From Stigmatella aurantiaca DW4/3-1 (GTDB taxonomy: Bacteria > Myxococcota > Myxococcia > Myxococcales > Myxococcaceae), in NCBI RefSeq assembly GCF_000165485.1, contig NC_014623.1, forward strand, positions 9,814,893 to 9,878,892: a stretch of DNA of 64,000 nt, given 5' to 3'. The notes under the pieces are model-generated. The model saw nothing but the letters and a program-made list of their open reading frames with translations. It made no database searches and was not told where the DNA came from. The position numbers were made by a program, and so were the translations under genes. Below, piece by piece: positions 1 through 17,954 of the stretch (position 1 is its first letter; each line of letters starts with the position of its first letter).

Positions 1-8
1 GCAAGGAG

Positions 9-617: not shown

Positions 618-669
618 CGCGCACCCCAGCATCTCCGCTCTGGGGGGGGATATCCAGGGCGCACTCCCG

Positions 670-2514
670 CTAATTCGTCTGGTACCCGCGCGCCTGAAGG
701 TTGAAGAGGTGGGCGTAGCGCCCATCGAGCGCCATCAACTCGGAGTGGTTGCCCAGCTCGTCCACCCGGCCGTTGTGCAGCACGGCAATGCGGTCCGCCA
801 TCCGCACCGTCGAGAAGCGGTGGGAGATGACCAGGGTGATGCGGTTGGCCGCCAGGGCCTGGAAACGCTCGAACAGGGCGTGCTCCGCCTCCGCGTCGAT
901 GCTGGCCGTCGGCTCATCCAGGATGAGCACCTCGGCCTCCCGCATGAAGGCCCGCGCCACCGCCAGCTTCTGCCACTGTCCCCCGCTCAGCTCGAACCCC
1001 TTGTCGAACCACCCCCCCAGCATGGTGTCGTACTTCTGCGGAAGCTCCTCGATGACGCCGTGCGCCCCTCCATGCTCGGCCGCTTGGCGGATGCGCTCCC
1101 GGTTCTCGATGGACTGCACATGGCCCAGCCCGATGTTCTCCGCCACGTTGAACTGGTAGCGCACGAAGTCCTGGAACACCGCGCCGAAGCGCGAGCGCAG
1201 GTCCTCGGGCTCCATGTCCTTCACGTTGACGCCGCCGTAGAAGATGTCCCCCTCGGTCGGCTCGTACATGCGCAGCAGCAGCTTCACCAGCGTCGTCTTT
1301 CCTGCGCCGTTCTCGCCCACCAGCGCCAGCTTCTCGCCAGGTTCCAGGCGCAGCGACACGCCGCGCAGCGCCCAGGCCTCCTTGCCCGGGTAGCGGAAGG
1401 ACACGTTGCGCAGCTCCAGCGTGTTTCCCAGCCCCTTCCGAGGGGAGAGGGCAGGCACCACCCGGGGCGTCTCCGCGCCCGTCGGAATGTCCAGGTAGGC
1501 AAAGAGGGTGCTCATGTAGAGCGCCCCCTCGTACATGGAGCCCAAGCTCGTGAGGATGCCCTGGAAGGCGGTCTGCCCGCCGCGGAAGAGGGACAAGTAC
1601 AGCACCATGTCTCCCACCGAGATGAGGCCCAGCGTCGCCCGGCCCGCGATGAAGGCATAGCACCCGTAGAACGCGCCCAGCGCCAGGGCCCCCAGCCCCA
1701 ACCCCCACGCCATCCGCCGGATCGACAGTCCCTTCTCCTCAGAGAAGAACTTCCAGTGCAATGACTGATAACGGTCGAGCACCATGGGGCCCAACCCGAA
1801 CAGCTTCACCTCCTTGACGTGGTTGTCTCGGGTGAGGATCCACTCGAGGTAAGCCAGCTTCCGCCGCTCCGGTGCTCTCCACGAGTGGAGCCGAAACCCC
1901 TCCTCCGCCATCCGCGCCTCCGCGATGAACGCCGGAATCGACGCCAGCACCAGCACCGCCACGCTCCACGGAGAGAGGGTCACGAGCATCACCGCGTACG
2001 TCGACAGCGTCACGAGGTTGCGGATGATCGAAAAGGCCTCCATGACCAGCGACAGCGGGCGGGTGGACGCCTCGCGCCGCGCGTTCTGCATCTTGTCGTA
2101 GGTGTCCGAGTCCTCGAAGTGCCGCAATTCGAGCGTCAGCGCCTTTTGGAGGATCCGCTCGTTGAGCAAGTTGCCCAGCCCGACGCGCAGCAGCTCTCGC
2201 GTCAGCGCCAGGCCTCGCTCCACCGTCACCGACACCAGCATCAGCCCCAGTTCCAGCGCCACCAGCTCCAGCACCCGGTGGCGCGCCGCCTCCCCGCCCC
2301 CCTGCCCCGCCACGACTCCGTCCACGATGAGCTTGCCGACCCAGGCAATCGACGCCGGCAACACCGCCGCCGTCAACGTCAACAGGCCCAGCACCACGGC
2401 GCCCCGCGGGCTCGACTCCCAGAAGAGGCGAAAGGTGCCGGGAAGCTGCCGGAAGAGACTGCCTGCGTTCTTCAGGCGATCCTTGAGCGAGGACGGAGGA
2501 GACAATGCGGACAC
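670..2514 (-). CDS. ABC exporter, fused membrane and ATPase domains
   Basis: A 614-residue half-transporter of the exporter type. The N-terminal ~330 residues contain about six hydrophobic membrane segments. The C-terminal nucleotide-binding domain has Walker A GENGAGKT near residue 398, signature LSGGQWQK near 508, Walker B VLILDEP near 526 and the H-loop SHRFSTVR. It would work as a dimer in the inner membrane, exporting an unknown substrate. It lies 44 bases downstream of a nucleotidyltransferase-like gene and just upstream of cysC on the same strand. The substrate cannot be read from the sequence; export of a product of the neighbouring sulfotransferase locus is an inference. Confidence 0.93.
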   Translation of the reverse strand: MSALSPPSSLKDRLKNAGSLFRQLPGTFRLFWESSPRGAVVLGLLTLTAAVLPASIAWVGKLIVDGVVAGQGGGEAARHRVLELVALELGLMLVSVTVERGLALTRELLRVGLGNLLNERILQKALTLELRHFEDSDTYDKMQNARREASTRPLSLVMEAFSIIRNLVTLSTYAVMLVTLSPWSVAVLVLASIPAFIAEARMAEEGFRLHSWRAPERRKLAYLEWILTRDNHVKEVKLFGLGPMVLDRYQSLHWKFFSEEKGLSIRRMAWGLGLGALALGAFYGCYAFIAGRATLGLISVGDMVLYLSLFRGGQTAFQGILTSLGSMYEGALYMSTLFAYLDIPTGAETPRVVPALSPRKGLGNTLELRNVSFRYPGKEAWALRGVSLRLEPGEKLALVGENGAGKTTLVKLLLRMYEPTEGDIFYGGVNVKDMEPEDLRSRFGAVFQDFVRYQFNVAENIGLGHVQSIENRERIRQAAEHGGAHGVIEELPQKYDTMLGGWFDKGFELSGGQWQKLAVARAFMREAEVLILDEPTASIDAEAEHALFERFQALAANRITLVISHRFSTVRMADRIAVLHNGRVDELGNHSELMALDGRYAHLFNLQARGYQTN

Positions 2515-2558
2515 ACCGCTTATCTACCTTGGGGACCTCGCGCCTGTCGCCCCTGCTC

Positions 2559-3380
2559 TCAGCGGAAGACGCCGTCGAGCACCTTCCGGGAAGCCTCTTG
2601 CCGGGCACACGCATACAGGCGCTGCTTGAACTCCTCGCGTTGCCCATGCTGGGAGCCAAAGTGGCTGTTCACGAAGCCCAGGAGACGCGCGCCCGTCCCC
2701 TGGATGTCATGGTCCGCATACCGCTCCAAGTGCTCCAGTGCGTTGGCCGCCGGGGTATAGCCACGGCAGATGAACTGGAGGATCCGGAAGGTGATCCGGT
2801 AGCTGGTCTCCAAGACCCGGGGGTGCGTGATGAGCCGGAGGATCCTCCCCTGGACATCCTCCAGGCCGCAGCCCAGCGGGTCGAGCAACACGCCCCCCTC
2901 GTGACACGCGAAATAGAACGCGTTCACCGAGAAGTCCCTCATGAGGGCGTCGTCGCGCACGTCGCCCCGGGGGATGAAAGACGTGGTCCGCATGTCGTCG
3001 TTCTGGATGTCCCCGGGGCTCCGCAAGAAGCTGAAGTCCACGCCCCCTGAAGCATCATCTCCCCAGCACATCATGCCGAACCGGTCCAACCGGGATCGCA
3101 CCGGATCAATGTCCGGATAGGCATGGCGGAGCAGCTGGTGGACCTCTTCCATCGAGCGATCCACGGCGATGTCGACATCCTGGGTGGGCACGCCCATGAG
3201 CCAATCCCGGGGGGCTCCTCCCACGATGTAGACCTGCATCCCGGCCGCTGCCAGCAGGCCCACGACATCCTGGATGCGAACCTCGTGCGCCGTGTCCCGG
3301 TAGATGACCTGCTCCAGAGAGGAGAGCACAAGGTGGGAGTCCACCGGATGGCTCCGGTAGCGTTCAAGAAGGTCTGGCAC
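2559..3380 (-). CDS. CCA/poly(A)-polymerase head-domain nucleotidyltransferase-like protein (copy 1)
   Basis: This 273-residue protein resembles the N-terminal half of class II tRNA nucleotidyltransferases and poly(A) polymerases. It has VGGAPRDWLMG near residues 53-63, followed by the metal-binding DVDIAVD and the later RDFSVNAFY and DPLGCGLEDV blocks typical of the family. It lacks the long C-terminal tRNA-binding part and any HD domain, so a true CCA-adding role is doubtful. A closely similar second copy lies at 12887-13711. It is co-directional with the 5'-nucleotidase (48 bases upstream) and the ABC exporter (44 bases downstream). What it nucleotidylates is unknown. Confidence 0.85.
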   Translation of the reverse strand: MPDLLERYRSHPVDSHLVLSSLEQVIYRDTAHEVRIQDVVGLLAAAGMQVYIVGGAPRDWLMGVPTQDVDIAVDRSMEEVHQLLRHAYPDIDPVRSRLDRFGMMCWGDDASGGVDFSFLRSPGDIQNDDMRTTSFIPRGDVRDDALMRDFSVNAFYFACHEGGVLLDPLGCGLEDVQGRILRLITHPRVLETSYRITFRILQFICRGYTPAANALEHLERYADHDIQGTGARLLGFVNSHFGSQHGQREEFKQRLYACARQEASRKVLDGVFR

Positions 3381-3428
3381 GTTCCGCAGGATACGCCCTG
3401 CCAGAGAAAAACACGGGAGGAACCCGTG

Positions 3429-5258
3429 TCAGGGCGTTCCGGACACAGGTTGGCATTTTCCTTCCCCCACGAAGCGCATCCGGCCAGGGGGAGGCGCCGC
3501 CAAGGGCCGCTGCGCCTTCTGCCAGAAAGCGATGAGCGCATCACGCAGGCCCAGCTCCTGGCCGAGTCCCAGATCGATGGCGTCCTTGGGAAAGGTTGCC
3601 AGCAGGGGGCCCAGGCCGTTGCCACCTCGCGCCAGGAAGTCTGGCATCACCACCCGGTAGGTCCGCTCCGGACGAACTGGCCTCCCATCGGGCAGCGAGA
3701 TGCGTTTGAGACGTCCAGGCCCTGGGCAACGGGCCAGCTCCACCTGCACTCCCGAGATCTGATAGACCCCCTGGCGCGCGGTGCCATAAACGTGCTCGAG
3801 CAGGCGCCAGAGCTGCTCTCCCGTCAGGGTCAGCGTGGCGAGCGTGTTGTCGAAGGGAAGCATCTCGTACACGCCGCCATAGGTCAGCGCTCCCGCCTGC
3901 AAGTCGGCGCGCATGCTTCCCGCGTTGAGCAGGGCCACGTCCGCGTGCATCAGCTCGCGCAAGGAGTCCGTGAGGAAACTTCCGAGGGAACTCTCCTCCG
4001 TGAAGTGGCGGCCCAGCACCTGGGGTACGCTCAGCCCGAGCAACCGCTTGCGCTCCGCGTCGGCCCTGGCCAGCGCGGGCGCGAGGAGCTGCTCGATCGT
4101 GGCGTCCTTCTCCACCGGCTGGCCCAGAAACGTGGCCTGAACGAGCTTCACGGTGGGCTGCTCCTGCAAGCTCCGCTGCGCACACTGGCGCGTCGTCTCA
4201 TCGACCCGCGCACACACCGGAATGAGGGGCTGGATGACCGTCCGGTCCTCCAGAACCTTGTGCGTGCGCGGATCCACGAAGAGTTCGATGGTGCCAAAGA
4301 ACCGGCCGTTCTCACGGGACTCGATAACGGGGGTCCCTTGAATGAAATGGCCCATGGGCTGGTGCGTATGTCCCGCCACCACCGCGTCCAGGGTGCCAGG
4401 AGGCAACGCCTGCAACAGATCGGTGAGTTCCTCTCCAGGCGCGCACGAGCTGAGGTCACGCGGGTGGTCCCACGCACGGCACTGCCCGCCGATGTGAGCC
4501 ACCGCGATGACCAGCTCCGCCCCCCTCGTCCTCAGTCGGCTGGCGGCGGCGAGCGTCTCGGGCAGCAGTTCGCCAAAGCGCAGGCCCGCGACGTTCAATC
4601 GGTTCGTGGTCTCGGGTGTCCTCGGCGTGGAGAGGCCGACGATGCCCACCTTCACCCCCTTCATGGTCAGCAACAACGTCCCGTCGCCCCGCAGCCACTC
4701 GGGCCGCTGGCCTGTCGCTGCGTCGTAGAGGTTGGCCGAGAGCAGGGGGAAGTGCGCCTGGGCCATCCGCGCCTTGAGCGCGCCGAGAGGATCCATCTCG
4801 GGACGGCTCGCGGCCTGCGCCGGGCCTACCGGTCCGTAATCGAAGTCGTGGTTGCCAATCGCCGCGGCGTGATAGCCGAGCTGGTTGTAGGCATCGATGA
4901 CGGCAGCCCCTTCCCCCAGGTTGGAGGCCAACGCCCCTTGAAACAGATCCCCTCCATCCAGCAGCAGGACACCGTCCGGGTTCGCGGCCCGGAGGATCGC
5001 GAGATAGCCCGCGAAGACGGCCAGCCCTCCCTCCTCGGCCAAGGTTCCATCGGAAAGCGAGAAGGGGTTCGGATGAATCCAGCCGTGCAGATCATTCGTT
5101 CCAACGAGGGTGAGCTGGATCGGCTCGGCGGCCTTGGGAGCACTGCTCACGGAAGACACCGTGGCAGGTGCGGATGCACCGCGTGTTCCCTGACACCCCA
5201 CAAGACAAAAAACCAAGAGGGCAGAGAGACACGGCCAGAGAAATCCCAGGGAGGGCAT
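3429..5258 (-). CDS. UshA-type 5'-nucleotidase/metallophosphatase lipoprotein
   Basis: Predicted cell-envelope enzyme that hydrolyses nucleotides or related phosphate esters. From the ATG at 5258 the product has 609 residues and begins with a lipoprotein signal peptide (LVGC, Cys22). The calcineurin-like domain carries GTNDLHG, DGGDLFQG, GNHDFDYG, AHIGG and GHTHQP in order. The C-terminal substrate domain has NAGSMRAD, PFDNTLAT and ARGGNG as in UshA and CpdB. A GTG at 5267 in the same frame is an alternative start; neither has a clear ribosome site. It is divergent from the gene at 5289 with only 30 bases between starts. It may head the minus-strand group ending in cysC. Confidence 0.92.
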   Translation of the reverse strand: MPSLGFLWPCLSALLVFCLVGCQGTRGASAPATVSSVSSAPKAAEPIQLTLVGTNDLHGWIHPNPFSLSDGTLAEEGGLAVFAGYLAILRAANPDGVLLLDGGDLFQGALASNLGEGAAVIDAYNQLGYHAAAIGNHDFDYGPVGPAQAASRPEMDPLGALKARMAQAHFPLLSANLYDAATGQRPEWLRGDGTLLLTMKGVKVGIVGLSTPRTPETTNRLNVAGLRFGELLPETLAAASRLRTRGAELVIAVAHIGGQCRAWDHPRDLSSCAPGEELTDLLQALPPGTLDAVVAGHTHQPMGHFIQGTPVIESRENGRFFGTIELFVDPRTHKVLEDRTVIQPLIPVCARVDETTRQCAQRSLQEQPTVKLVQATFLGQPVEKDATIEQLLAPALARADAERKRLLGLSVPQVLGRHFTEESSLGSFLTDSLRELMHADVALLNAGSMRADLQAGALTYGGVYEMLPFDNTLATLTLTGEQLWRLLEHVYGTARQGVYQISGVQVELARCPGPGRLKRISLPDGRPVRPERTYRVVMPDFLARGGNGLGPLLATFPKDAIDLGLGQELGLRDALIAFWQKAQRPLAAPPPGRMRFVGEGKCQPVSGTP

Positions 5259-5288
5259 GTGAATCACGATGATATAAGAACCAACACC

Positions 5289-6536
5289 ATGCCTTCACGT
5301 GGATTTCAGCGCGTCTACCAAGCGGGTACGCGCGACCTCAACGGCCGCTTCATGGGCGGCACGGAGATCATGCATCTGGCCGCACACGCGGGAAGGCTTT
5401 ACGCGGCGACTTCCACCATGTGGGACCAGCCCGGGGAGGACCCTGCCGTGGGCGCCCAGGTGCTCGTTCTGGACCGTCCGGGCGGGGCTTGGCGGGTGGA
5501 CCATGCGTTCGAGACCCGGAACTGGCGGATGAGCCTCGTCTCCCTCACCTTCACCGGTGACCGGCACGGGCGCACGCTGGAGGCACCCGTCCCCCTGTTG
5601 CTGGCGGCACCTTCGGATGGCCAGGGCCACGCCACCGTTCACAGCCGCGATGAAGGCTCGGGAACCTGGACCCGGATGGCGCTCGCCGCCCAGAGCCCCC
5701 GGACGGCCAGCGTCCGCAGCCTGTTTCTTCACCGGGACACGGTCACCGGCATCGAGCACGTCTTCGCCGGCACCTTGCCGGGAGGACTCTTCCGGGGGGG
5801 CTACGATGCCTCCGTGCCCGGGAACATCCACTGGGATGAGGCGCCTGAACTCGCGGACTACAAGGCCCGGCCCATGGCCTTCGCCGTCTGCAACGGGGCG
5901 CTGCACGTGGCCATCAAACCCCACCTGTACCGGCGCGTGGACGGTGAGGCTCCCCGCTGGGAGAAGGTCTACACGCTGCCTGAGGACGTGACCCGCATCA
6001 GCAGTGGCCTGCGCGGCCTGACCACCGTGCCCCACCCGTCAGGCCAAGGCGAATGCATGCTCGCTGCCCTGGAGGGAAACCGGGCCCGCATCATCCGGAT
6101 CGATCCCCAGGACGACTACCGCGCGACGCTCGACCTGGAAGTTCTCCAGTTCTTGGAAACCCAGTGGGGCCGGCGCCCGGGCTACGCCATCGTGGCCTAC
6201 GACGACATGACGCCGGTGCCGCTGCCGGGAGGGGGGACGGCGTTGCTCATCGGCCTCGAGGCCACGCACAGCGCCCAGCACGAAACCCACCCCAAGGACG
6301 GCTGGGAGCCCGGAGGCAGGTACCTGATCCGCCACCCGGACCAACACTACGTGTTGCGGCAAATCATCGATCCTTCCCTGGACCCGATGCCGCCGCTCGT
6401 GTCCACGCGCACCATTCGCGTCTCGCCCTTCGACCCGGAGACCCTCTATTTCGGCGGGTATGATCCCAACTCCATGCCCGCTCACAACACCGGCTGGGTC
6501 TTCTCGGCGCCGCTGGACGTGGCCTTGGGCGCATGA
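5289..6536 (+). CDS. Hypothetical protein, probable beta-propeller
   Basis: A 415-residue protein I do not recognise by family. It has no signal peptide or membrane segment. Repeated short stretches such as HAGRLYAATS, EHVFAGTLPGGLFRG, NGALHVAIKPHLYR and ETLYFGGYDPN have the hydrophobic-strand and turn pattern of beta-propeller blades (sorting-type reporter or exo-alpha-sialidase folds), but no catalytic motif is evident. The frame stays open far upstream to 3123, opposite the 5'-nucleotidase; that part is antisense shadow. The ATG lacks a good ribosome site. A GTG at 5259 preceded by GGGAGG is possible but would overlap the divergent gene. It is followed after 60 bases by the AMP-ligase gene and may belong to that locus. 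Confidence 0.7.
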   Translation: MPSRGFQRVYQAGTRDLNGRFMGGTEIMHLAAHAGRLYAATSTMWDQPGEDPAVGAQVLVLDRPGGAWRVDHAFETRNWRMSLVSLTFTGDRHGRTLEAPVPLLLAAPSDGQGHATVHSRDEGSGTWTRMALAAQSPRTASVRSLFLHRDTVTGIEHVFAGTLPGGLFRGGYDASVPGNIHWDEAPELADYKARPMAFAVCNGALHVAIKPHLYRRVDGEAPRWEKVYTLPEDVTRISSGLRGLTTVPHPSGQGECMLAALEGNRARIIRIDPQDDYRATLDLEVLQFLETQWGRRPGYAIVAYDDMTPVPLPGGGTALLIGLEATHSAQHETHPKDGWEPGGRYLIRHPDQHYVLRQIIDPSLDPMPPLVSTRTIRVSPFDPETLYFGGYDPNSMPAHNTGWVFSAPLDVALGA

Positions 6537-6596
6537 AGGCCCTTGCATGAGAGCGGACGCACTCATTAAATTCCAGATAAACCCCCAAATCAGCCA

Positions 6597-8177
6597 TTGG
6601 TCCCATTGAGTACGCGCTCCGAACAGCGGGAATCGGCTCCCAAGCCGCCCGCACCTGGCGTCCCTGCCGCAGGCGTTGCCTTCGGTGAAGTCTTCTCCCG
6701 GGCTCTCTCGGCCGCCTCTGAACACCAGAGCCTTCTGACGGATGGCAGGCTTTCGCTGTCCTATTCAGAGCTGAGCGGGCACTTCACTCACCTCGATGCC
6801 TTCTTCGCCTCACACCACATCGTGCCCGGGAGCATTCTGGTCCTGGAGTGCGTCAACTCCGTTCCCGGAGCGCTGAGCCTCCTGTACGTGATGTCCCGGG
6901 GCTTCAGCCTGGTGCTGCTCCCACCACCGGGCAAGGCGGCTCCCTCTGTCCCGCTGCCACGTTTCTGCCACCACCGCCTGACGGTCCAGAGCCAGCTCGT
7001 GGATGGCGCGGACATCGTCCTGAACCGTCCCGAGACCTTCCTCCAATACACCCGGAGCGAGGAGCCCGTCCTACCGCTGGACCCGGCACATGCCACGGGG
7101 AAGATCTTCCTGCGGACCTCGGGAAGCATCGGCACGCCCAAGCTGGCCATGTACACGCACGGCCAGTTGCTCGCCAACGCCCTCAACGCCGTGGAGCGGC
7201 TGCACCTGTCGGAAGCGGATCACATCTCGCTCCCCGTGCCGCTGTGCCACATGTTTGGGCTCGGCGCGGGCTTCCTGCCGGGCTTCTCCGTCGGTGCCTC
7301 GCTGGGCTTCGTGGAGGGCGCCAACATCCTGCGCTACCTCGAGCACGAGCGGTATTTCCGCCCCACGGTCGCGTTCATGACCCCAGCCCTGTGCTCCATG
7401 TTCTTGCGGCAGCAAAGCGCGCCGGAGCACTACCGCCACGTGGTGCTGGCCGGAGACAAGCTGAAGCCCGAGTCCTTCGATGCCGCGGAGGCCCGATTCC
7501 GGCGCGCGGTCCTCCTCTATGGCACCACGGAAATGGGCGTCATCGCCGCCTCGGACGCCGAATCCCATGAGGGGCCCCGCTCCGTCACCGTGGGCCCCCC
7601 CTTGCCGGGCATCGAGCTGAAGCTGGAGCAGCCCAGCGACGCCGGTGCGGCACCCGAGGTGGTGGCGGGAGCCATCGTCTGCCGCCATCCCCATGGCTTC
7701 GAAGGCTATGTGGACAACGACGGCGGGCCCTGGACAGGAGAGCCTCCCTTCCACGAAGGCTGGTACCGCACCCGGGACTGGGGCCGCTTGCACGCCGGAG
7801 GACTGCTGGAGGTCCTGGGGCGTCAGGATCACAGCGTCAACCGGGATGGCCGCCTCGTGCTGCTCGCCGAAGTCGAGCGCGCCCTGGAAGGAATCACCGA
7901 CGTGGCACAGGCCATCACCCTGCTCGGCGCGGAGAACCTCCGGGGCCGCCACATCCTGGCCTTGTGCACGCCGCGAGAGGGCCGGAGTTTGGATAGCGCT
8001 CAAGTGCGCGCGGCCTGCGCCAGCCTCCTGCCGCCCTATGCCACCCCCGATGAGGTGCGCATCCTTCCCTCGTTCCCCCTGCTGCCCAACGGCAAGATCG
8101 ACCGGCGCACCCTGATGGTTCAGTTCACCGGGACACCTCCCCCCCCCGCCAGCGAGAAGAAAGAGAACCAGACATGA
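6597..8177 (+). CDS. AMP-dependent acyl/aryl ligase (adenylation enzyme)
   Basis: A 526-residue ANL-superfamily enzyme that activates a carboxylic acid as its adenylate. It has the P-loop-like TSGSIGTPK near residue 178, the A5 motif YGTTEMG, the A7-region YRTRDWG, a divergent A8 loop (DHSVNRDGR) and the C-terminal LPNGKIDR with the catalytic Lys. Its stop overlaps the carrier-protein ATG by four bases (ATGA), so it very likely loads that carrier. The start is uncertain: the assigned codon is TTG, another TTG lies at 6606, and no ATG is suitable. The substrate cannot be predicted from the sequence. It is the first committed gene of a seven-gene plus-strand run ending at 12873. Confidence 0.92.
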   Translation: MVPLSTRSEQRESAPKPPAPGVPAAGVAFGEVFSRALSAASEHQSLLTDGRLSLSYSELSGHFTHLDAFFASHHIVPGSILVLECVNSVPGALSLLYVMSRGFSLVLLPPPGKAAPSVPLPRFCHHRLTVQSQLVDGADIVLNRPETFLQYTRSEEPVLPLDPAHATGKIFLRTSGSIGTPKLAMYTHGQLLANALNAVERLHLSEADHISLPVPLCHMFGLGAGFLPGFSVGASLGFVEGANILRYLEHERYFRPTVAFMTPALCSMFLRQQSAPEHYRHVVLAGDKLKPESFDAAEARFRRAVLLYGTTEMGVIAASDAESHEGPRSVTVGPPLPGIELKLEQPSDAGAAPEVVAGAIVCRHPHGFEGYVDNDGGPWTGEPPFHEGWYRTRDWGRLHAGGLLEVLGRQDHSVNRDGRLVLLAEVERALEGITDVAQAITLLGAENLRGRHILALCTPREGRSLDSAQVRAACASLLPPYATPDEVRILPSFPLLPNGKIDRRTLMVQFTGTPPPPASEKKENQT

Positions 8178-8515
8178 GCGCCCAACCCGCCGGGAACCTC
8201 CCCCCCAGTCCCGAGAATCCGCTGGCCCCCCCGTCCGAGGTTGGTCACATCGTCACGCAACTGCGGCGGATGATCGTCCACGAGTTGGACGTGCGCATCC
8301 AGGAAGAGGAACTCACCAGCGACACGTCTCTGATCGATGGGCGCCTGGCGCTCGACTCCATCGTCCTCTTCGAGCTCATCACACTCATCGAGAAGCGCTT
8401 CGGCTTCGAGTTCTCCGATCAAAACCTTCGCATGGAGGTCTTCGCGAGCCTCACGGCGCTGGCGCAGCACATCCATCACGCCACGGCCCAGTCCAAGCAG
8501 GCTGCGGCCGTCTGA
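8174..8515 (+). CDS. Acyl/peptidyl carrier protein
   Basis: A 113-residue discrete carrier protein. The phosphopantetheine attachment site is in LALDSIVLFEL, with Ser62 as the modified residue, inside a typical four-helix carrier domain (about residues 22-100). The first ~20 residues are Pro-rich and probably disordered. The gene overlaps the ligase upstream by four bases and is followed after 35 bases by the radical SAM gene, so the intermediate made in this locus is probably tethered here as a thioester. No dedicated phosphopantetheinyl transferase is seen in the window. Confidence 0.93.
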   Translation: MSAQPAGNLPPSPENPLAPPSEVGHIVTQLRRMIVHELDVRIQEEELTSDTSLIDGRLALDSIVLFELITLIEKRFGFEFSDQNLRMEVFASLTALAQHIHHATAQSKQAAAV

Positions 8516-8550
8516 GTCCCACCTGTTTCATCCGTGAAGAGGATGCCGCC

Positions 8551-9834
8551 ATGAGCACCACCGCCCAGGACACCGTTCCTCGCATCGAGCTGACCCGGAA
8601 GGGATTCATCACCAACTATCCCCCGTACCGTTACTGGCGCCCCGAGACCGCCCAGCGGCTCCTGGATCCCAAGCCGCTCAACATCTATGTGCACACGCCC
8701 TACTGTGTGCAGCGGTGCGCGTACTGCCACTACAAAACCACCACCCTCAATGAGAACCGCAAGGCGGAGATCGACCGGTACGTCCAGTCGTTGTGTACCG
8801 AGATCCAGCTCGCCTCCAAGCGCTTCCACCTCAAGGAGCGGCCCACCCACTCCATCTACTTTGGCGGCGGCACGCCCACCCTGCTGTCCAAGGAGAACCT
8901 CAGCCGCATCATGGACTGTCTCCGCGAGCACCTCACCTTCGCGGATCCGGAGATCACCGTCGAGGGCGAACCCGTCACCCTCATCCAGGCCAAGGCGGAC
9001 CACCTCAAGAGCCTGGGCGTCAACCGCATCAGCCTGGGCATCCAGTCCCTCGCCGACGAGATCATCCTCAAGACCGGACGCCGCGACACGGAGAAGCACG
9101 CGTTCAAGGCCATCGAGATCGCCAAGGGCACCGGCGCCGTCGTCAACGTGGACCTGATGAGCGGCCTGGCGGGCGAGACGGATGCAACGTGGGCGTACAC
9201 CGTGGAGCGCGCGCTCGCCGCCGACGTGCACTCGCTCACCGTCTACAAGACCGAGCTGTACGCCAACACCGAGTACTACGCCGGCATCAAGAAGAACACC
9301 CTGGAGCTGCCCTCCGATGACGAGGAGCTCAAGTATGCCGCGTATGCCATCGAGCAGATCGAGGCCAAGGGCTACCTCCCGGTCAACTTCTTCACCTTCA
9401 CCCAGGGCGGTGGCCACATGCAGCGCCACACCACCAGCAAGTGGAGGGGTGACGACATCTACGCGTTCGGCGTGTCGGCCTTCGGCTCGATTGGCAGTTT
9501 CTCCGTCCAGAACATCAGCGACCTGGAGAAGTACTCGAGCACCCTGGAAGCGGGAGAGCTGCCCATCGCGCGCGGCTACCACCTGAACGCCAAGGACCTG
9601 ATGGCCCGGGATGTCGTCCTGGGCATGAAGCTGATCCACTTGGACCGCAAGGCCTTCCGGCAGCGCTATGGCCTGGACCTGGTGCGCCTCTGCGAGCCCA
9701 TGGTGAATGCCTTGGTGGAGGAAGGCTTCATCACCGTCTCGGACGAGCGCCTCTCCCTGACCCGCAAGGGCATCCTGTGGGGTGACTACACGGGCCGCCA
9801 GCTCGCCGCGGCGGTGGATGCGGTGGCGTCCTGA
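8551..9834 (+). CDS. HemN/HemW-like radical SAM enzyme
   Basis: A 427-residue radical SAM protein of the coproporphyrinogen oxidase-like family. The 4Fe-4S cluster cysteines are C52, C56 and C59 in YCVQRCAYC, and the SAM-binding glycine motif is YFGGGTPT. The middle section (LGIQSLADE and MSGLAGETD) also follows HemN/HemW. The residues after the CxxxCxxC motif are H-Y-K rather than the G-x-C of true HemN, so heme synthesis is unlikely. In secondary metabolism, family members perform methyl transfer or cyclopropanation. Its place between a carrier protein and sulfotransferases suggests it modifies the carrier-bound intermediate (inference). ATG at 8551. Confidence 0.9.
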   Translation: MSTTAQDTVPRIELTRKGFITNYPPYRYWRPETAQRLLDPKPLNIYVHTPYCVQRCAYCHYKTTTLNENRKAEIDRYVQSLCTEIQLASKRFHLKERPTHSIYFGGGTPTLLSKENLSRIMDCLREHLTFADPEITVEGEPVTLIQAKADHLKSLGVNRISLGIQSLADEIILKTGRRDTEKHAFKAIEIAKGTGAVVNVDLMSGLAGETDATWAYTVERALAADVHSLTVYKTELYANTEYYAGIKKNTLELPSDDEELKYAAYAIEQIEAKGYLPVNFFTFTQGGGHMQRHTTSKWRGDDIYAFGVSAFGSIGSFSVQNISDLEKYSSTLEAGELPIARGYHLNAKDLMARDVVLGMKLIHLDRKAFRQRYGLDLVRLCEPMVNALVEEGFITVSDERLSLTRKGILWGDYTGRQLAAAVDAVAS

Positions 9835-9859
9835 GCCCTGAGCCCCTGAGCGCCCCTCG

Positions 9860-10627
9860 ATGATCCTCACCAGCGACTTCGTCTACATCCACCAACCCAA
9901 GACGGGCGGAACCTTCGTCACGAAAGTGCTGGAGCGGCTCTACCCCAGCGGCGACAGCCCGCCGGGCAAGCGGGGGCGGCTCATCAACACCCACAAGCAC
10001 GGCGCCTGCAGCGAAGTGCCCGAGGAGTGGCGTGGCAAGCCCCTGCTGACGACGCTGCGCAACCCGTACGATCGCTACGTCTCCCAGTACCGCTTCGCCT
10101 GGTGGAAGCGGTACCCGGACATGTACTGCGGTGAAGACGAGATGCGGGCCATGTTCCCGCACTACCCGGAGCTGTCCTTCGGCGAGTTTCTGCTGCTGGC
10201 AAACACGAAGTTCGTCAACCGGCACCAGCGGCAAGAGACGGGCTTCCGCAACGAGCACTTCCCCGAGGAGCGGCGCCTGGGCTGGCACACCGAGCAGTTC
10301 GTGCGCTTCTACTGCCGCCAGCCACGCGAGGTCTTCCGTGCCATCGACGAGGCGTATATCGCCGAGGGCCGGCTCCGGCAGGACCTATTCCCCGTGAGAT
10401 TCACCTTCTCGGAGAGCCTCAACGGGGAGCTGCACGCCTTCCTGCGCGAGGTGGGCCACGCCCCCGAGGACATCGCCTTCATCCTGGACGCGGCGAAGAT
10501 CTACCCGGAGGAGGGCGGACGGGCTCCCGAGGACCGCTGGGAGTCCTATTACACGCCCGAGCTCAAGCACCTCGTGCGGACCCGGGAGCGGCTCCTCTTC
10601 GAGCTGTTCCCCCAGTACGACGTGTGA
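9860..10627 (+). CDS. Sulfotransferase family protein (1)
   Basis: A 255-residue cytoplasmic-type sulfotransferase. The 5'-phosphosulfate loop is HQPKTGGTF at residues 11-19 and the 3'-phosphate site is TLRNPYDRYVSQY. These are the standard PAPS-binding elements. It lies 25 bases after the radical SAM gene and 17 bases before an SDR. It is not closely similar to the second sulfotransferase at 11357, so the two probably act on different positions or substrates. The acceptor is unknown. Confidence 0.9.
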   Translation: MILTSDFVYIHQPKTGGTFVTKVLERLYPSGDSPPGKRGRLINTHKHGACSEVPEEWRGKPLLTTLRNPYDRYVSQYRFAWWKRYPDMYCGEDEMRAMFPHYPELSFGEFLLLANTKFVNRHQRQETGFRNEHFPEERRLGWHTEQFVRFYCRQPREVFRAIDEAYIAEGRLRQDLFPVRFTFSESLNGELHAFLREVGHAPEDIAFILDAAKIYPEEGGRAPEDRWESYYTPELKHLVRTRERLLFELFPQYDV

Positions 10628-10644
10628 GGCGAACGAGAAACGCG

Positions 10645-11349
10645 ATGGACACCCCCCAGATTGCATTGGTCACCGGGGCCAACCGGGGCCTCGGACTCGA
10701 GCTGTGCAAGCAACTCGCCGCGCGAGGCACCCGCGTCCTGCTCACCGCCCGAAGCGAGGAGAAGGGCCAGAAGGCGGCACGGGCGTTGGCCGAACAAGGG
10801 CTGCCCGTCAGCTTCTTGTGGCTCGATGTCACGAGCGAGCAGAGCCTGGTGCAGGGAGTGGAGTACATCTCCCGCGAGTTCGGGCGCCTGGACATCCTCG
10901 TCAACAACGCGGCCGTTTCGCTCGACCTCAAGCGGCCCGGCCTCGAGATCGGCATGGACATCGTCCGCACCACCATCGAGACGAACGTCTACGGTCCGCT
11001 GCGCCTCACCCAGCTCGCCGTGCCTCTGATGCGCAAGAACCACTACGGCCGCATCGTCAACGTCTCGAGCGGCCTGGGCTCCTTCTCGCGCATCACCGCC
11101 GGCAAGTTGGCGTACCGCCTCTCCAAGGCCTCGCTCAACACCATGACCAAGGTCTTCGCCGATGAGCTTCAGGACACCAACATCCTGGTCAACGCCGTGA
11201 CGCCCGGTTGGGTCCGCACGCACCTGGGAGGCATCCGGGCGGAGCGCTCCGTCGAGGAGGGCGTGGACAGCATCCTTTGGCTGGCCACCCTTCCGGACGA
11301 TGGCCCTCGCGGGAAGTTCTTCAAAGACCGCAACGAATTCCCCTGGTAG
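10645..11349 (+). CDS. Short-chain dehydrogenase/reductase
   Basis: A 234-residue classical SDR. It has the NAD(P)-binding TGANRGLG near residue 10, the NNAAVS motif near residue 89 and the YRLSK active-site tyrosine-lysine pair preceded by a Ser in NVSSG. The product reduces a ketone or oxidises an alcohol; the substrate is not evident. ATG at 10645 is chosen because the annotated alignment begins there; the frame is open to 10624. It lies inside the ligase-carrier-radical SAM-sulfotransferase run, 17 bases downstream of one sulfotransferase and 7 upstream of the next. Confidence 0.9.
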   Translation: MDTPQIALVTGANRGLGLELCKQLAARGTRVLLTARSEEKGQKAARALAEQGLPVSFLWLDVTSEQSLVQGVEYISREFGRLDILVNNAAVSLDLKRPGLEIGMDIVRTTIETNVYGPLRLTQLAVPLMRKNHYGRIVNVSSGLGSFSRITAGKLAYRLSKASLNTMTKVFADELQDTNILVNAVTPGWVRTHLGGIRAERSVEEGVDSILWLATLPDDGPRGKFFKDRNEFPW

Positions 11350-11356
11350 CCGCCCC

Positions 11357-12220
11357 ATGATCAAGCCCAACTTCTTCATGGTCGGGGCCCCCCGCTGTGC
11401 CACGACCTCGATGTACACATACCTCAAGCAGCACCCGGACATTTTCCTGTCGCTGCTCAAGGAGCCCATCTACTTCGGCTCGGATCTGACGCGCCAGCCC
11501 CTGGCCATTACCGAAGAGGCCCACTACCTCAGCCTCTTCGCCGGCGCGGGGAACGCCCAGGTCGTTGGAGAAGGCTCGGTCTTCTACATCATGTCGAAGC
11601 GGGCTCCCCAGGAGCTCAAGGACTTCTCTCCGGCCGCACGCATCCTCATCATGCTGCGGGATCCCGTGGACATGATGCACTCGCTGCACTCCCTGTATCT
11701 GCGCACCGGCAACGAAGCGCTGGAGGACTTCGAAGACGCGCTCGAGGCAGAGGCCACCCGGGCCCAGGGCCAGCGGCTGCCGCCCCGGTGCTATTTTCCC
11801 GAGGGGCTCCAGTACCGCTCGGTGGCCCACTACGCCGAGCCGGTGGAGCGCTTCCTGCGCACGTTCGGCCCCGAGCGCGTTCACGTGCTCCTCTTCGATG
11901 ACCTCGTCCGCGACACCGCCGGAGAGTACCGGCGCACGCTGGAGTTTCTCGGGGTGGACCCCCATCACCCCGTGGAACTCGATGTGGACAAGGCCACGGA
12001 ACTCATCCGGCCCCTTGTCCTCAAGCAGATGCGCGCCGCCTCCCAAGAGGTCCGCCAGAAGCTGAAAACGGGACGAGACTCCCACCGCGGCCCCCGGAGC
12101 AAGCCCGTCTCCGCCGCGCTCCGGGCCCGCCTGCATGAGGAGCTGCGGCCCGATGTGGAGCGGTTGAGCACCCTGCTCAACAGGGATCTCTCCCACTGGT
12201 GTAAGGCTCGTCCCTCATGA
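11357..12220 (+). CDS. Sulfotransferase family protein (2)
   Basis: A 287-residue sulfotransferase of the heparan-sulfate/NodH-like type. The 5'-phosphosulfate loop APRCATTS lies at residues 11-18, followed by LKQHPDIF, and the 3'-phosphate motif is IMLRDPVDMMHSLHS. It starts 7 bases after the SDR and overlaps the next gene by four bases (ATGA). Its PAPS-binding signatures differ from the upstream sulfotransferase at 9860, so the pair is not a recent duplication. Confidence 0.9.
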   Translation: MIKPNFFMVGAPRCATTSMYTYLKQHPDIFLSLLKEPIYFGSDLTRQPLAITEEAHYLSLFAGAGNAQVVGEGSVFYIMSKRAPQELKDFSPAARILIMLRDPVDMMHSLHSLYLRTGNEALEDFEDALEAEATRAQGQRLPPRCYFPEGLQYRSVAHYAEPVERFLRTFGPERVHVLLFDDLVRDTAGEYRRTLEFLGVDPHHPVELDVDKATELIRPLVLKQMRAASQEVRQKLKTGRDSHRGPRSKPVSAALRARLHEELRPDVERLSTLLNRDLSHWCKARPS

Positions 12221-12873
12221 ACGAGGGAGCCTTCCAGCTGGCGCGCATCATCCGGCGGCTCAAGGCGCGCGTGAGCACCGAGGAACTGGGAGGCGAGACC
12301 GTGGAGCAGCTCGTCCGCCGGTGGTCCCGGCTCCGCTCCCCCGAGCTGAACATCGACGTCCGGGAGTATGACCCGCGCTGGCCCGAGACGTTCGAGGCCG
12401 AGAAACACCGCATCCACGGCGCGCTGAAGGACCTGGGGCTGGTGGACATCCAGCACATCGGCAGCACCTCCATTGCCCCCCTGCCCAGCAAGAACATCGT
12501 TGATCTGGCGGTGGCCGTTCCGTCCTTGCCGTGCAGCGTCCCGCAGACGGAGGCGCTGCTTGGACTCGGCTACCAGGCCTATGGGCCCAGCCCCATCGAT
12601 CCAGACTTCTCCTGGTTCTGGCGCATCGAGGCAGAAGGCCAGGGAGCCTTCGTGGTCCATGTGTGCGGAGCGCAGAGCCCGTGGTTCTCCCACTTGATCC
12701 ACTTCCGCGACTTCATGCGGGCTTTTCCCGAGGAGCGCCAGCGGTACGAAGCCTTGAAGCGAGAGCTGGCCCAGGTGCCGGATCAGAGCTGGCTGGAGTA
12801 CAGCATCGTCAAGCGCGCCCTGGCCTTGCGCATCACCGAACGCGCCAACGCCTGGGCCGCGCGAGGCCCATGA
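12217..12873 (+). CDS. GrpB (UPF0157) family protein
   Basis: A 218-residue protein whose residues ~45-210 match the GrpB family, a nucleotidyltransferase fold of poorly known function. Diagnostic pieces are YDPRWPETFEAEK, QHIGSTSIAPLPSKNIVDLAV and the HLIHFRDFMRA stretch. An N-terminal ~40-residue extension precedes the family domain. The start overlaps the sulfotransferase stop (ATGA), so it is translationally coupled to the biosynthetic run and is its last gene. It ends 13 bases before the convergent nucleotidyltransferase-like gene. Confidence 0.88.
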   Translation: MNEGAFQLARIIRRLKARVSTEELGGETVEQLVRRWSRLRSPELNIDVREYDPRWPETFEAEKHRIHGALKDLGLVDIQHIGSTSIAPLPSKNIVDLAVAVPSLPCSVPQTEALLGLGYQAYGPSPIDPDFSWFWRIEAEGQGAFVVHVCGAQSPWFSHLIHFRDFMRAFPEERQRYEALKRELAQVPDQSWLEYSIVKRALALRITERANAWAARGP

Positions 12874-12886
12874 CGAAAACAGCCCC

Positions 12887-13711
12887 TCAGCCTTCCTGAT
12901 GGGCGAAGACCCGGTCCAGCACCTGCCGGGAAGCGTCCTGGCGCGCAAAGGCAGAGAGCCGTTGCCGGAACTCCCTCCAGAGCGCCGGGTCCTTTCCGAG
13001 GTGGTTGGGCAGCCAGTTCAGAAGACGGTCCCCCATGCCCTGGATGTCGTGGTCCGCGAAGCGCTCCAGGTGCTCGTGGATGTTGGGCGCTGGCACGTAC
13101 CCTCGGCACAGGAACTGGATGATGCGGAAGGTCGTCCGGTAGCTGGTGCTCAGAACCCGGGGATGGGTGATGAGCCGAAGCACCCGGCCCCGCAAGTCTT
13201 CCACGCCGCAGCCGAGCGGATCCCACAAGCGGCCCTCTTCATGGCAGGGGTAGTAGAACGCATTCATGGAGAAGTCCCGCGTGAGGGCATCCTCCCGCAA
13301 GTCTTCCCGGGCCACGAACGACGTGGTCCACATGTCGTCGTTCTGGATGTCGTGGTGACTGCGAAGGATGTTGAGGTCCACGCCGCCTAAAGCCGCATCC
13401 CCCCAACTCAGCGTGCCGAAGCGCTCGTTCCGCCGCAACACTGGATCCATCCCAGGAAAGGCCTGGCGCAGAATCGCATGGGCCTCCTTTACCGGCCGGT
13501 CCAAGGAGAGGTCCACGTCCTTGACGGGCTCCCCGGTGAGCCAGTCCCGGCAAGCGCCTCCCACCACGAAGACACGCATCCCCCGGCCTTGAAGCAGCTC
13601 GATCACATCCTGGATGCGAACCGCGTGCCCCGCATCCCGGCAGATGATCTGCTCCAAAGACGTTCGCACCACCGGAGTCTCGATGGGATGGCTTGGGTAC
13701 ACTTCGCTCAC
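12887..13711 (-). CDS. CCA/poly(A)-polymerase head-domain nucleotidyltransferase-like protein (copy 2)
   Basis: A 274-residue paralogue of the product of 2559-3380, alike over its whole length. Shared blocks include RIQDV near the N-terminus, VGGACRDWLTGEP, DVDLSLDRP, RDFSMNAFYY, DPLGCGVEDL, ITHPRVL and the C-terminal ARQDASRQVLD. The start is GTG at 13711, preceded by AAGGAG at a good distance; the open frame to 14359 is not used. It converges on the GrpB gene and diverges from the SDR at 13938. Like copy 1 it keeps the head-domain catalytic acids but lacks the tRNA-binding C-terminal part. Confidence 0.85.
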   Translation of the reverse strand: MSEVYPSHPIETPVVRTSLEQIICRDAGHAVRIQDVIELLQGRGMRVFVVGGACRDWLTGEPVKDVDLSLDRPVKEAHAILRQAFPGMDPVLRRNERFGTLSWGDAALGGVDLNILRSHHDIQNDDMWTTSFVAREDLREDALTRDFSMNAFYYPCHEEGRLWDPLGCGVEDLRGRVLRLITHPRVLSTSYRTTFRIIQFLCRGYVPAPNIHEHLERFADHDIQGMGDRLLNWLPNHLGKDPALWREFRQRLSAFARQDASRQVLDRVFAHQEG

Positions 13712-13854
13712 GATGCGTTCTCCTTGGACCCGCGCCTGGCTCTCGGCACTTCCGATGGCGGAAGCGTTCCACCTCCGGAGCCCTTCCCCCCGAAGCCTAC
13801 CGCGTCGTGGCAGGGGGAAGCCTTGGAGGACTGCACGGCGGGAATTGGAGAAGT

Positions 13855-13895
13855 CCTCAGTTAGGGCAGTATCCACCGCACATCGAGAACTGAGG
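13855..13895. promoter_or_regulatory. 8-bp inverted repeat in divergent promoter
   Basis: CCTCAGTT at 13855-13862 is repeated in inverted orientation as AACTGAGG at 13888-13895, separated by 25 bases. It lies between the GTG of the nucleotidyltransferase-like gene (13711, minus) and the SDR ATG (13938, plus). It could be a regulator site or chance; nothing else supports it. Confidence 0.35.
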
Positions 13896-13937
13896 CGCTT
13901 CCCGGGCATGCGATATACGGGGCCAGGAGGAAACATC

Positions 13938-14717
13938 ATGTCACGCAAGGTGGCTCTCGTTACGGGAGCTTCAGCAGGGCTGGGAGAGCAGTTCGCGCAG
14001 CGCTTCGCCCAGGATGGGCACGACCTCATCCTGGTGGCACGCACCACCTCCCGGCTGGAGACGCTGGCCGCCCGGCTGGAGCAGGCGCATGGCATCAAGG
14101 CCCACGTCCTGACCGCGGACCTGTCACGGCCCGAGGCCCCCGAGCGCCTCTTCGAGGACGTGCGCGCCCGAGGGCTGACGGTGGAGTACCTCGTCAACAA
14201 CGCGGGCTTCGGCTCCGCGGGACCCTTCCTGGAACAGCCCCTGGAGCGCGAGGCGGAGATGGTGGAGGTCAACTGCACCTCCCTGCTGAAGCTGACGCAC
14301 CTCTTCGCGCGGACCATGCGAGAGCGGGGCTCCGGGCGCATTCTCAACATCGCGTCCACTGCGGGCTTCCAGCCGGGCCCCTATATGGCCACGTACTACG
14401 CCACCAAGGCCTTCGTGTTGTCCTTCTCGGAGGCGCTGGCACACGAGCTCAAGGGAACCGGGGTGACGGTGACGTGCTACTGCCCGGGGGCCACGCACAC
14501 GGAGTTCGCAGCCCGTGCGCAAGTCGAGAAATCGCGTCTGTTTCAGCGGCCAGGGGTCGCGACGGCGCCCGATGTGGCCGCGGATGGCTACGCGGCGATG
14601 ATGAAGGGCCGCGTCCTGTCGATCCATGGCCTGCTCAACTGGATCGGCACGATGGGCGTGCGCTTCGGACCGCGCGCCCTCGTGCGCTCCATCGCCGCCA
14701 GCCTCAACCAGTCTTAA
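13938..14717 (+). CDS. Short-chain dehydrogenase/reductase
   Basis: A 259-residue classical SDR with TGASAGLGEQFA at residues 9-20, NNAGFGS, a Ser in NIASTAG and the active-site YYATK. It resembles the DltE/YqjQ-like group of NADP-dependent SDRs. The start is fixed by a strong ribosome site (AGGAGG, 7 bases before the ATG); the frame is open upstream to 13614. The stop codon TAA overlaps the stop codon of the convergent gene on the other strand. No substrate can be assigned. Confidence 0.93.
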   Translation: MSRKVALVTGASAGLGEQFAQRFAQDGHDLILVARTTSRLETLAARLEQAHGIKAHVLTADLSRPEAPERLFEDVRARGLTVEYLVNNAGFGSAGPFLEQPLEREAEMVEVNCTSLLKLTHLFARTMRERGSGRILNIASTAGFQPGPYMATYYATKAFVLSFSEALAHELKGTGVTVTCYCPGATHTEFAARAQVEKSRLFQRPGVATAPDVAADGYAAMMKGRVLSIHGLLNWIGTMGVRFGPRALVRSIAASLNQS

Positions 14718-17700
14718 GCGGCGTGTCCCTTCCGCCGCTCCAGCGTGCCACGGGCCAACTGGATGATCTCATCCTCGGAGAGCTGCTCGGTCCGCATCAC
14801 CGAGCGCTCCGCCCGGAGCTGCTGTACCTGCCCTTCGCGCAGCACGTGGAATTGCCCCGTCTTCTGGGGAGGGAGCTTCACGCTCGCATCCACGCGGGCC
14901 TCGGAGAACATGGGCTTGAGCCTCCTGAGTGCGACGTCCTCCCTCACGCTGCCCACGAACCAAGTGCGTACGTTCTCGCGGCACTTGTAATCCAGGTCCC
15001 CCGGGCTCTGGGTGGCGAGCATGACGCCTACCCCCGCGGAGCGGGCCCGCCGGAGGAGGTTCTCCATGGGCTGCTTGGTGGCGGGCTTGCTCACCGCGGG
15101 CAGATACAGGTCCGCCTCGTCGAAGAGGAGCGCGGCCTGAAGCCGGGAAGAGGGGTGCTGGCTCGCCCAGCGGTTCGTCTCCAGCAAGAGCTGGGACACC
15201 CAGAAAAGCACCCGTGAGTTCGCGCCGAGGAACTTGGTACTGATGATGCTCAGCCGCGTCCGGCCGGGTATCGCGGAGGCGCCACGTCCCAGCAGCTCAT
15301 CCATGTCCAGCCGCTCTCCACCGGACGCCAGCAATGGGCGGATGGTGAGGCGAAGCACCTCCAGGTCCTGAGCGAGCTTGGTGAACGTCTTGGGAGGCAG
15401 TCCCCCGGTCTCCTGGAGCAGCGCCGCATCCTGAGCGGCGACGAACTGTTGCACCGTCTCCAGGGTCAGCTCCTTGCTGATGGGCCGCTGCACCAACAAC
15501 CGGAGCGCCTGGGCGAGCAGTGCACGGGCGGCGTTGTCCGCGGAGGTGGTCTTGTATTCGAGCATCCCGGCAATGGCGTCCGCTGCCTGCTGCACGCCCT
15601 GGTCCCGCTCCTCTTCGGGCAGTGCCTCCAGCCCCCGGGGAACGATGGGAATGGCCAGCGGCCGTCCATCCGAACGGCCCGGCGTGTAGAGCGCCACGTC
15701 GACGCGCTCTCGCAGGAGGCGCCGGCGCTCGCTCAGGAGCTGCGAGTCCAGGGGCTCTTCCCAGGCCTTCTCGCTCGCATAGGTGGCCAAGTCTCCCTTC
15801 CGGTCCACGAGGAGCACGGGAATGCCCTGAAGCAGGAGCTGCTCGAGGATGTTGAGCGCCAATGTCGTCTTTCCACTGCCGGTGCCCCCCAGGAAGGCAC
15901 TGTGCCGGGTGAGCTCTGACATCTCCAGCGGAACGGACTGCGACAAGATCCCCGGAGAAGACCCGAGCGTCAGCGGCCCCGTGAGCACAGTGTTGACGGG
16001 CGCCTGAACGGACGAAGCCAAGGTCTCCTTCAAGGTCTCCTTCAAGGTCTCAGCGAGGGGTTTCTTGGGAGCGTCTTCGATGGACCGCACCGTTGGGAGA
16101 GGAGCAGACGGGGTCTGTGGAGGTCCGCTCGTTCGATCCAGCCCAAGCATGTCTCCCACGGACTTCAGCCGGGTGATGAGCCGGGCCGAGCGGCTCCACT
16201 CCGTCAGCGTGGACTGTCCCGCGTTCTTCTCCCGGAACGCTCGCAGCGCCACGAGTTCGCGCAGCTCGCTGTCACCCAGCACCACGCGCCGCCCGCCCCT
16301 GCTCATCAACTTTTTGATCTGCTCTGCCACGGTGGTCCCGGTCGACGAGGGAAAATCCGAGGTCCGCACGATGACAGGCACACCGCTGGCGGCCTTCTTG
16401 AGCGCTTCGGCCATCTGCCTTCCGAGCCCTCCTCCTTGAGGACTCCGCTCGCAGAGGGCGATGAAGAGCTGGCCATTCCCTGGCTGAACGGTGACTTCCA
16501 GGGAGGCCTCTCCTCGCGGCTTGACGGCGAGCCGCTGGGCGCCCCCCAGCTCGTCGCTGCCCACCTCGATGGCCCAGGCAAGCAACTCCGCCACGTCCGC
16601 ATCCTCCTCGGGAAGCGACGCCTTGCAGGAAGAACGGAAGTCCAGCCACATCTGCTCCAGATCCACCGTGGCTGGCTGCGTCTGGGAGACCGTCGCGCCC
16701 TGTCCTCCCGCCACGCCTTTGCGAGGAAGTGGGAAGACCTCCGGGAGGCGTCCGTCCTGGATGGCGCGGTCCCGGTACCGCTGGCACTCGTTCAACACAT
16801 CGCGCGCCCGCTGGCCTCCCAACACCTCGAAGCGCTCCGCGGGAATGGGCCAGGTGGGCTCCGCCGGGTCGAAGCCCACGCCCCGCTGCTCATACAACGA
16901 GCGCAAGCGCTGGGCCGCGATGCTCCGGGCCGTGTCCGCCGTCACCGTGCCTTCGAGGTCCACCGGCTCGGGATCATTCTCCAGCCGGTCCACCAAGGGA
17001 CGGTTCAGCACCGGCCGTATCTTCCCCCAGTAATCCGACAGGCAGCAGATGACCATCACCGCGTTGGGCACCTTGCTGGCGATGGCCGCGAGGCTGTTCA
17101 TGGCCCGGCGGAAGGAGTTCTCCATCTGCGGGCGCTGCTCGAAGTCGCTGACGTCCTCGACCTGATCCACACACAAAACGAGCGCCTGTCCCAGGGCGCC
17201 CATCAGCCGGCCCAGGTGCTCCACCATCCGTGCCGGGGCGTCGTCCGCAGTCCGGGGAATGAGGTCCCCAATCATCTTCCGGTCCATCGCGGACAGCTCT
17301 TCGCAGCGCAGCCAGTGGAAGATGCGCCGGTTGATGCGTGGGTCCCTGCGCTGTAGGTAGAGCAGGGCGCGAAGCAGATCCACCTCGACGTTCCGAAAGC
17401 CCGATTCGGAGAGCAGTTCGTCGGCCACCATGTGGATGGTCCCGTCCAGCTCGTCGTTCTCCAGCACCCGCTCCTCCGGAATGAGCGGCGCGAAGGCGCT
17501 GGTGCAGCGCTTCATCAGCGCATCCGACAGCCGCATCAGCCCACTGTCCTCACTCAGGGACACGTCATAGGGCCGGTCCAGCGAGTCGATGAGGTTCGAG
17601 AGGATGTAGCGCTCGTACTGGGCCACATCGACCGTCATGGGCATGTAGCCGACGAAGCCCTGGCCCTTTCCGTGGACGAGGTTTCGGAAAGCCCGTACCA

Positions 17701-17932: not shown

Positions 17933-17954
17933 AGGCGCTCCAGGGGATGACGGG

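Follow-up and report, generated by a model that had tools for sequence, protein, structure and literature searches.

An inserted orphan gene cluster around a stand-alone carrier protein in Stigmatella aurantiaca DW4/3-1

The stretch of 64,000 nucleotides analyzed here (the window, positions 9,814,893-9,878,892 of a genome that forms a single contig of 10,260,756 bases) contains a block of ~13 kb and twelve genes that has been put as one unit between two adjoining myxobacterial genes. It is a real, well-bounded orphan cluster whose parts come from known families. Our best explanation, held with slightly more confidence than doubt, is that the block represents a specialised-metabolite cluster that moves by horizontal transfer, in which a ligase would load an acid onto a carrier protein, a radical SAM enzyme would add a one-carbon unit, and the actions of a short-chain dehydrogenase/reductase (SDR) and of sulfotransferases would complete the product.

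Insertion Site and Gene Organization

The limits of the block were determined by DNA comparison of window positions 1-20000 with the sibling genomes. In G001, cysC (97605-98246) is followed on the same contig by an SDR gene (98253-99074) that corresponds to window positions 13,902-14,722, and G004 is likewise cluster-free with the same empty site; the joint between the two genes is visible directly in the sequences of both siblings. As cysC and this second SDR gene (SDR2, at 13,941) sit 7 bases apart in the cluster-free siblings, positions ~663-13,901 of the window represent an inserted block. In G138 the stretch matching window positions 676-13,699 is contiguous and has different flanking genes.

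A preliminary description of this DNA had counted cysC (9-725), as a source of PAPS, among the members of the locus. Its adjacency to the SDR gene in the siblings identifies cysC as an old neighbor of the insertion point, and in G138, G115 and G116 it is located elsewhere, distant from the cluster; cysC was therefore rejected as a member.

The seven tightly packed plus-strand genes (6597-12873) of that description are all present. They code for an acyl ligase, a carrier protein, a radical SAM enzyme, the sulfotransferase-like protein ST2, an SDR, the sulfotransferase ST3 and a GrpB-family protein. The genes overlap by 4 bases at the junctions ligase/carrier, ST2/SDR and ST3/GrpB, and the remaining gaps measure 35, 25 and 7 bases. 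The inventory had missed an eighth plus-strand gene, encoding a beta-propeller protein (5289-6536), although the interval it gave begins with the start of this gene, 60 bases of spacer separating it from the ligase gene, as well as two genes for nucleotidyltransferases with a PolyA_pol head (2559-3380 and 12887-13699, both on the minus strand). A scan for promoters and terminators gave nothing above chance.

Distribution, Decay and Constraint

An orthologue of the radical SAM enzyme was found in 5 of the 195 Myxococcota genomes, and the ligase (by profile search), ST2 and GrpB occur in exactly the same five. The PolyA_pol-head protein is present in these five and has one further relative (43%) in G003; the propeller is present in the five, as a paralog elsewhere in the own genome, as a secreted lipoprotein (40%) in G165 and as fragments in G117. 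The order ligase-carrier-radical SAM-ST2-SDR-ST3-GrpB-PolyA_pol is kept in G138 and, inverted, in G115, and G116 has the same gene run as judged by coordinates; in G115 and G116 the propeller and a nucleotidase gene are arranged differently. In all versions the SDR gene lies between both sulfotransferase genes. Four further genomes repeat this order, so the clustering exceeds chance by far. The search for the order ligase-carrier-radical SAM-sulfotransferase in other myxobacterial genomes thus found these genes conserved together, and their presence in the same genomes with the order kept supports the earlier proposal of one unit and one pathway. What stands of that proposal is a single biosynthetic unit, inherited together, with a stand-alone carrier at its center; cysC falls outside it, and the ABC transporter belongs to it in part.

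Coverage outside the Myxococcota consisted of a single pattern scan over 84,980 species, which detects close relatives only, and of plasmids. Plasmid-borne HemN-like proteins (29%) were considered as cluster relatives and rejected, as the two annotated neighborhoods among the three records contain neither ligase nor carrier.

The window and G138 share 77% DNA identity over positions 6723-13699, yet reach 79% identity in the radical SAM, ST2 and GrpB proteins. At this DNA identity, unconstrained drift would be expected to leave far fewer identical residues, which suggests that the proteins are maintained. In G117 (C1:8904341-8914226), fragments that correspond to the regions of ligase, carrier, ST2, SDR and propeller are found inside 10 kb, and the radical SAM gene has been lost. 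The decay of the propeller gene along with the rest argues that it belongs to the cluster. The sharp limits of the gene set, together with the natural controls that near relatives provide as empty sites and a decayed copy, make the product searchable by strain comparison.

Ligase and Carrier Protein

The first two of the seven genes, both on the plus strand, encode an AMP-forming acyl ligase (6597-8177; PF00501, 5e-33) and a stand-alone acyl carrier protein (8174-8515; PF00550, 2e-8, over the cut-off). In the carrier, Ser62 in the motif LALDS is conserved, and D61-S62 is invariant in five sequences. Among solved structures, oxalate-CoA ligases and NRPS A domains come closest to the ligase. Residue F220 occupies what we take to be the position of the amino-binding aspartate of PheA (hand alignment), which weakly suggests that the substrate is a carboxylic acid without an alpha-amino group. 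The ligase would activate such an acid and load it onto Ser62 of the carrier.

The pair resembles AmcH/AmcB of cispentacin biosynthesis through weak NCBIfam matches (ligase 73 bits of 370, carrier 43 of 80), but these scores are far under the cut-offs and the ketosynthases are absent here. No match of ligase or carrier to a known primary pathway exceeded any curated cut-off, in agreement with the earlier proposal.

Radical SAM Enzyme

The third gene (8551-9834, plus strand) encodes a HemN-like, class C-type radical SAM enzyme, with PF04055 (7e-22) and the HemN_C domain PF06969 (2e-11) both over the cut-off and an invariant CxxxCxxC motif (C52, C56, C59). Searched against the PDB, the profile of the enzyme matched HemN (1olt, 4e-48) and also NocN (9p2u, 1e-26), a class C methylase. 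The SAM-II residues of NocN are Tyr34, Tyr96, Arg153, Asp196 and Ser225 (PMC12871812). Their counterparts by alignment, the identical Y46, Y103, R159 and D201 and the conservatively replaced T230, are invariant in six orthologues. The enzyme also contains DLMSG, comparable to DIMSG in NocN, where HemN and the two other HemN-family proteins of the genome have DLIYG or DFIYG; among these proteins DxMSG is therefore shared with NocN only. These features support a two-SAM, class C-type chemistry, in which the enzyme would use two SAM molecules to place a one-carbon unit, methyl or cyclopropane, on an sp2 carbon in the acyl chain attached to the carrier.

The enzyme is thus similar to the class C radical SAM methylases (NosN/NocN, TbtI, C10P) in its CxxxCxxC motif, its HemN-like two domains, the residues of the NocN SAM-II pocket and DxMSG. 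It differs from them in sequence (~29% identity) and in being the fixed neighbor of a ligase and a stand-alone carrier, a setting for which no class C methylase was described in the literature searched. Few members of the class have been studied in detail (NosN, TbtI, C10P; PMC12871812).

Among curated families the enzyme scores highest with HutW, HemW and HemN, as would be expected if the enzyme were a tetrapyrrole protein of this type and the block served heme or porphyrin metabolism. We consider this very improbable: a heme-type assignment was rejected because the scores are all under the NCBIfam cut-offs (HutW 214.6 of 400, HemW 190.8 of 205.4, HemN 176.7 of 324.95 bits), the genome encodes other HemN-family proteins, there are no heme genes in the block, and the link with ligase and carrier is fixed.

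Sulfotransferases and SDR

ST2 (9860-10627, plus strand) matches PF03567 slightly below the cut-off (20.9 bits versus 22) and has PAPS-site motifs; all five orthologues match the same family, and PKTGGTF and RNPYDRYVSQY are invariant. Its predicted structure (pLDDT 43) is unusable as a fold model. We regard ST2 as a likely sulfotransferase. ST3 (11357-12220, plus strand) clearly belongs to the sulfotransferases on family matches, with PF13469 and PF00685 over the cut-off and an invariant PAPS-binding motif, GAPRCATT; its start is most likely at 11357 and not at 11300, because the orthologues start there. Between them lies the SDR gene (10624-11349, plus strand; PF00106, 3e-47). The SDR would reduce or oxidize a carrier-bound intermediate, and one or two PAPS-dependent sulfotransferases, drawing PAPS from the general supply of the cell, would sulfate a hydroxyl or amine. 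The metabolite is probably sulfated. A point against the proposed pathway is that neither a thioesterase nor any other release enzyme is encoded in the block.

In curacin release, a sulfated beta-hydroxyacyl-carrier undergoes decarboxylative elimination. If sulfation served such a step here, the end product would be an alkene without sulfate, and an SDR together with a sulfotransferase acting on a carrier is the pair needed. We judge this route improbable, as a thioesterase is absent from the block, two sulfotransferases would be left unexplained, and the nearest relatives of ST3 are the generic sulfotransferase 3rnl (6.5e-46) and heparan 3-O-sulfotransferases, with the PKS sulfotransferase chain 4gox a weak match.

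Caprazamycin-type sulfation combines a PAPS sulfotransferase with a propeller arylsulfate sulfotransferase, and the block is similar in having sulfotransferases together with a beta-propeller. Its propeller, however, lacks a Pfam arylsulfotransferase match and has no histidine among the residues invariant in seven relatives, and the type III PKS is absent here. In the literature searched there was no match for a HemN-like radical SAM enzyme and a sulfotransferase together in a gene cluster, and the combination of these known families as a whole did not turn up there either.

A Related Trio in Sorangium

Sorangium cellulosum So ce26 (NZ_CP012673) contains ligase, carrier and radical SAM genes in the same order, with products 51%, 49% and 62% identical to those of the block. 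They are followed by genes for a propeller-like protein, a cupin/hydroxylase-sulfotransferase fusion and a class III aminotransferase and by NRPS/PKS genes, placing a sulfotransferase domain two genes beyond the trio. The trio thus appears to be a portable module for acyl processing within specialised metabolism, encountered twice with a sulfotransferase. The preliminary description had noted the lack of PKS or NRPS modules; this is true of the Stigmatella-type block, where no condensation or ketosynthase domain was found among the proteins, but the Sorangium relative of the trio adjoins NRPS/PKS genes.

The fold of the So ce26 propeller-like protein was read from sequence, and BLASTP shows no detectable relation to the propeller of the block. 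Within the 21 kb read around the trio there is no GrpB or PolyA_pol gene. The fusion protein (locus 12348-14141), encoded beside NRPS genes, has an N-terminal part resembling an Asp/Arg-hydroxylase or cupin (weak matches).

Propeller, GrpB and Nucleotidyltransferases

The propeller gene (5289-6536, plus strand), co-inherited with the cluster, encodes a protein of 415 amino acids with a well-predicted structure (pLDDT 87). Pfam, NCBIfam, PHROGs and PDB sequence searches gave no match, and the fold matches many unrelated generic propellers, including virginiamycin B lyase and YncE. A distant relative in G165 (C69, 9450-11192) resembles a secreted lipoprotein and occurs without the cluster.

The last of the seven genes (12217-12873, plus strand) encodes a GrpB-family protein (PF04229, 1.5e-33) that matches the solved GrpB 2nrk. 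The literature searched contained no GrpB in a biosynthetic cluster; the only role found for GrpB/UPF0157 was in CoaE folding. Both PolyA_pol-head nucleotidyltransferases keep the catalytic motif (GG..RD..G..DxD in the protein encoded at 2559-3380), and the catalytic residues G47, G48, R51, D52, D61 and D63 are invariant in five proteins. The two nucleotidyltransferases and GrpB may modify the product or a partner, although it is hard to see where the nucleotidyltransferases would fit into the scheme proposed above. As part of that scheme, the cluster would give a biosynthetic setting to GrpB, a family about whose function very little is known, and to minimal nucleotidyltransferases of the PolyA-polymerase type.

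A paralogous locus of the own genome (G000:C1:8486000-8502000, 6379-10339) contains a propeller, an SDR, a GrpB and a nucleotidyltransferase-like protein without Pfam match, with a HAD hydrolase nearby; genes for a ligase, a carrier, a radical SAM enzyme and sulfotransferases are all absent from it. Propeller, SDR and GrpB may therefore have a separate role, and the block could consist of two modules joined by chance and moved together, one of ligase, carrier, radical SAM enzyme and sulfotransferases, the other of propeller, SDR, GrpB and nucleotidyltransferase with a different function. The Sorangium trio, with no recognizable propeller homologue, GrpB or PolyA_pol protein alongside, is in line with this view. 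Against it, the SDR gene sits between both sulfotransferase genes in every version, the propeller decayed with the remainder in G117, and one set of five genomes contains both the GrpB and the PolyA_pol relatives. We consider a chance union possible but rather less probable than a single specialised-metabolite cluster.

If, within a single pathway, all parts acted on one product, a PKS/NRPS-free carrier route would have a class C radical SAM enzyme alkylate the acid, two sulfotransferases decorate it, and the PolyA_pol-head proteins, together with GrpB, add a nucleotide or transfer one. This would yield a new class of sulfated, nucleotidylated metabolites and make GrpB a biosynthetic protein; we offer this extension tentatively and think it unlikely.

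Three nucleotidyltransferase-fold proteins in a mobile block could also indicate a defense or nucleic-acid modification island, for which the patchy presence and block insertion speak as well. The only PADLOC signal was a weak viperin score for the radical SAM domain, and a carrier, an acyl ligase and sulfotransferases are not known defense parts, making such an island highly unlikely.

Transporter, Nucleotidase and Other Loci

The ABC exporter of the preliminary description exists as an MsbA-like transporter (670-2514, minus strand), the second copy in the genome, and is a block member in some genomes only. It is carried by the block in the own genome, G005 and G138, but the cluster is not accompanied by a copy in G115 and G116. 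At least one copy is present in 71 of the 86 family genomes, two in the own genome and in G005, and G138 has a further copy at 6.3 Mb. The transporter may export the product in some genomes.

A secreted lipoprotein of the 5'-nucleotidase type (3429-5267, minus strand) likewise rides with the block in some genomes only. It was rejected as a core member, as it occurs without an intact cluster in G117, G013 and G020; in G117 the gene beside the decayed remnant retains 95% DNA identity and an open frame.

In G003 (C162, 8500-13069), the gene for the PolyA_pol-head relative lies back to back with that of an STM4012-type HemN-like radical SAM protein. The same region codes for a HAD hydrolase and a 450-amino-acid protein without assigned function and adjoins an apparent MFS/EmrA-type efflux pair, possibly representing another orphan cluster.
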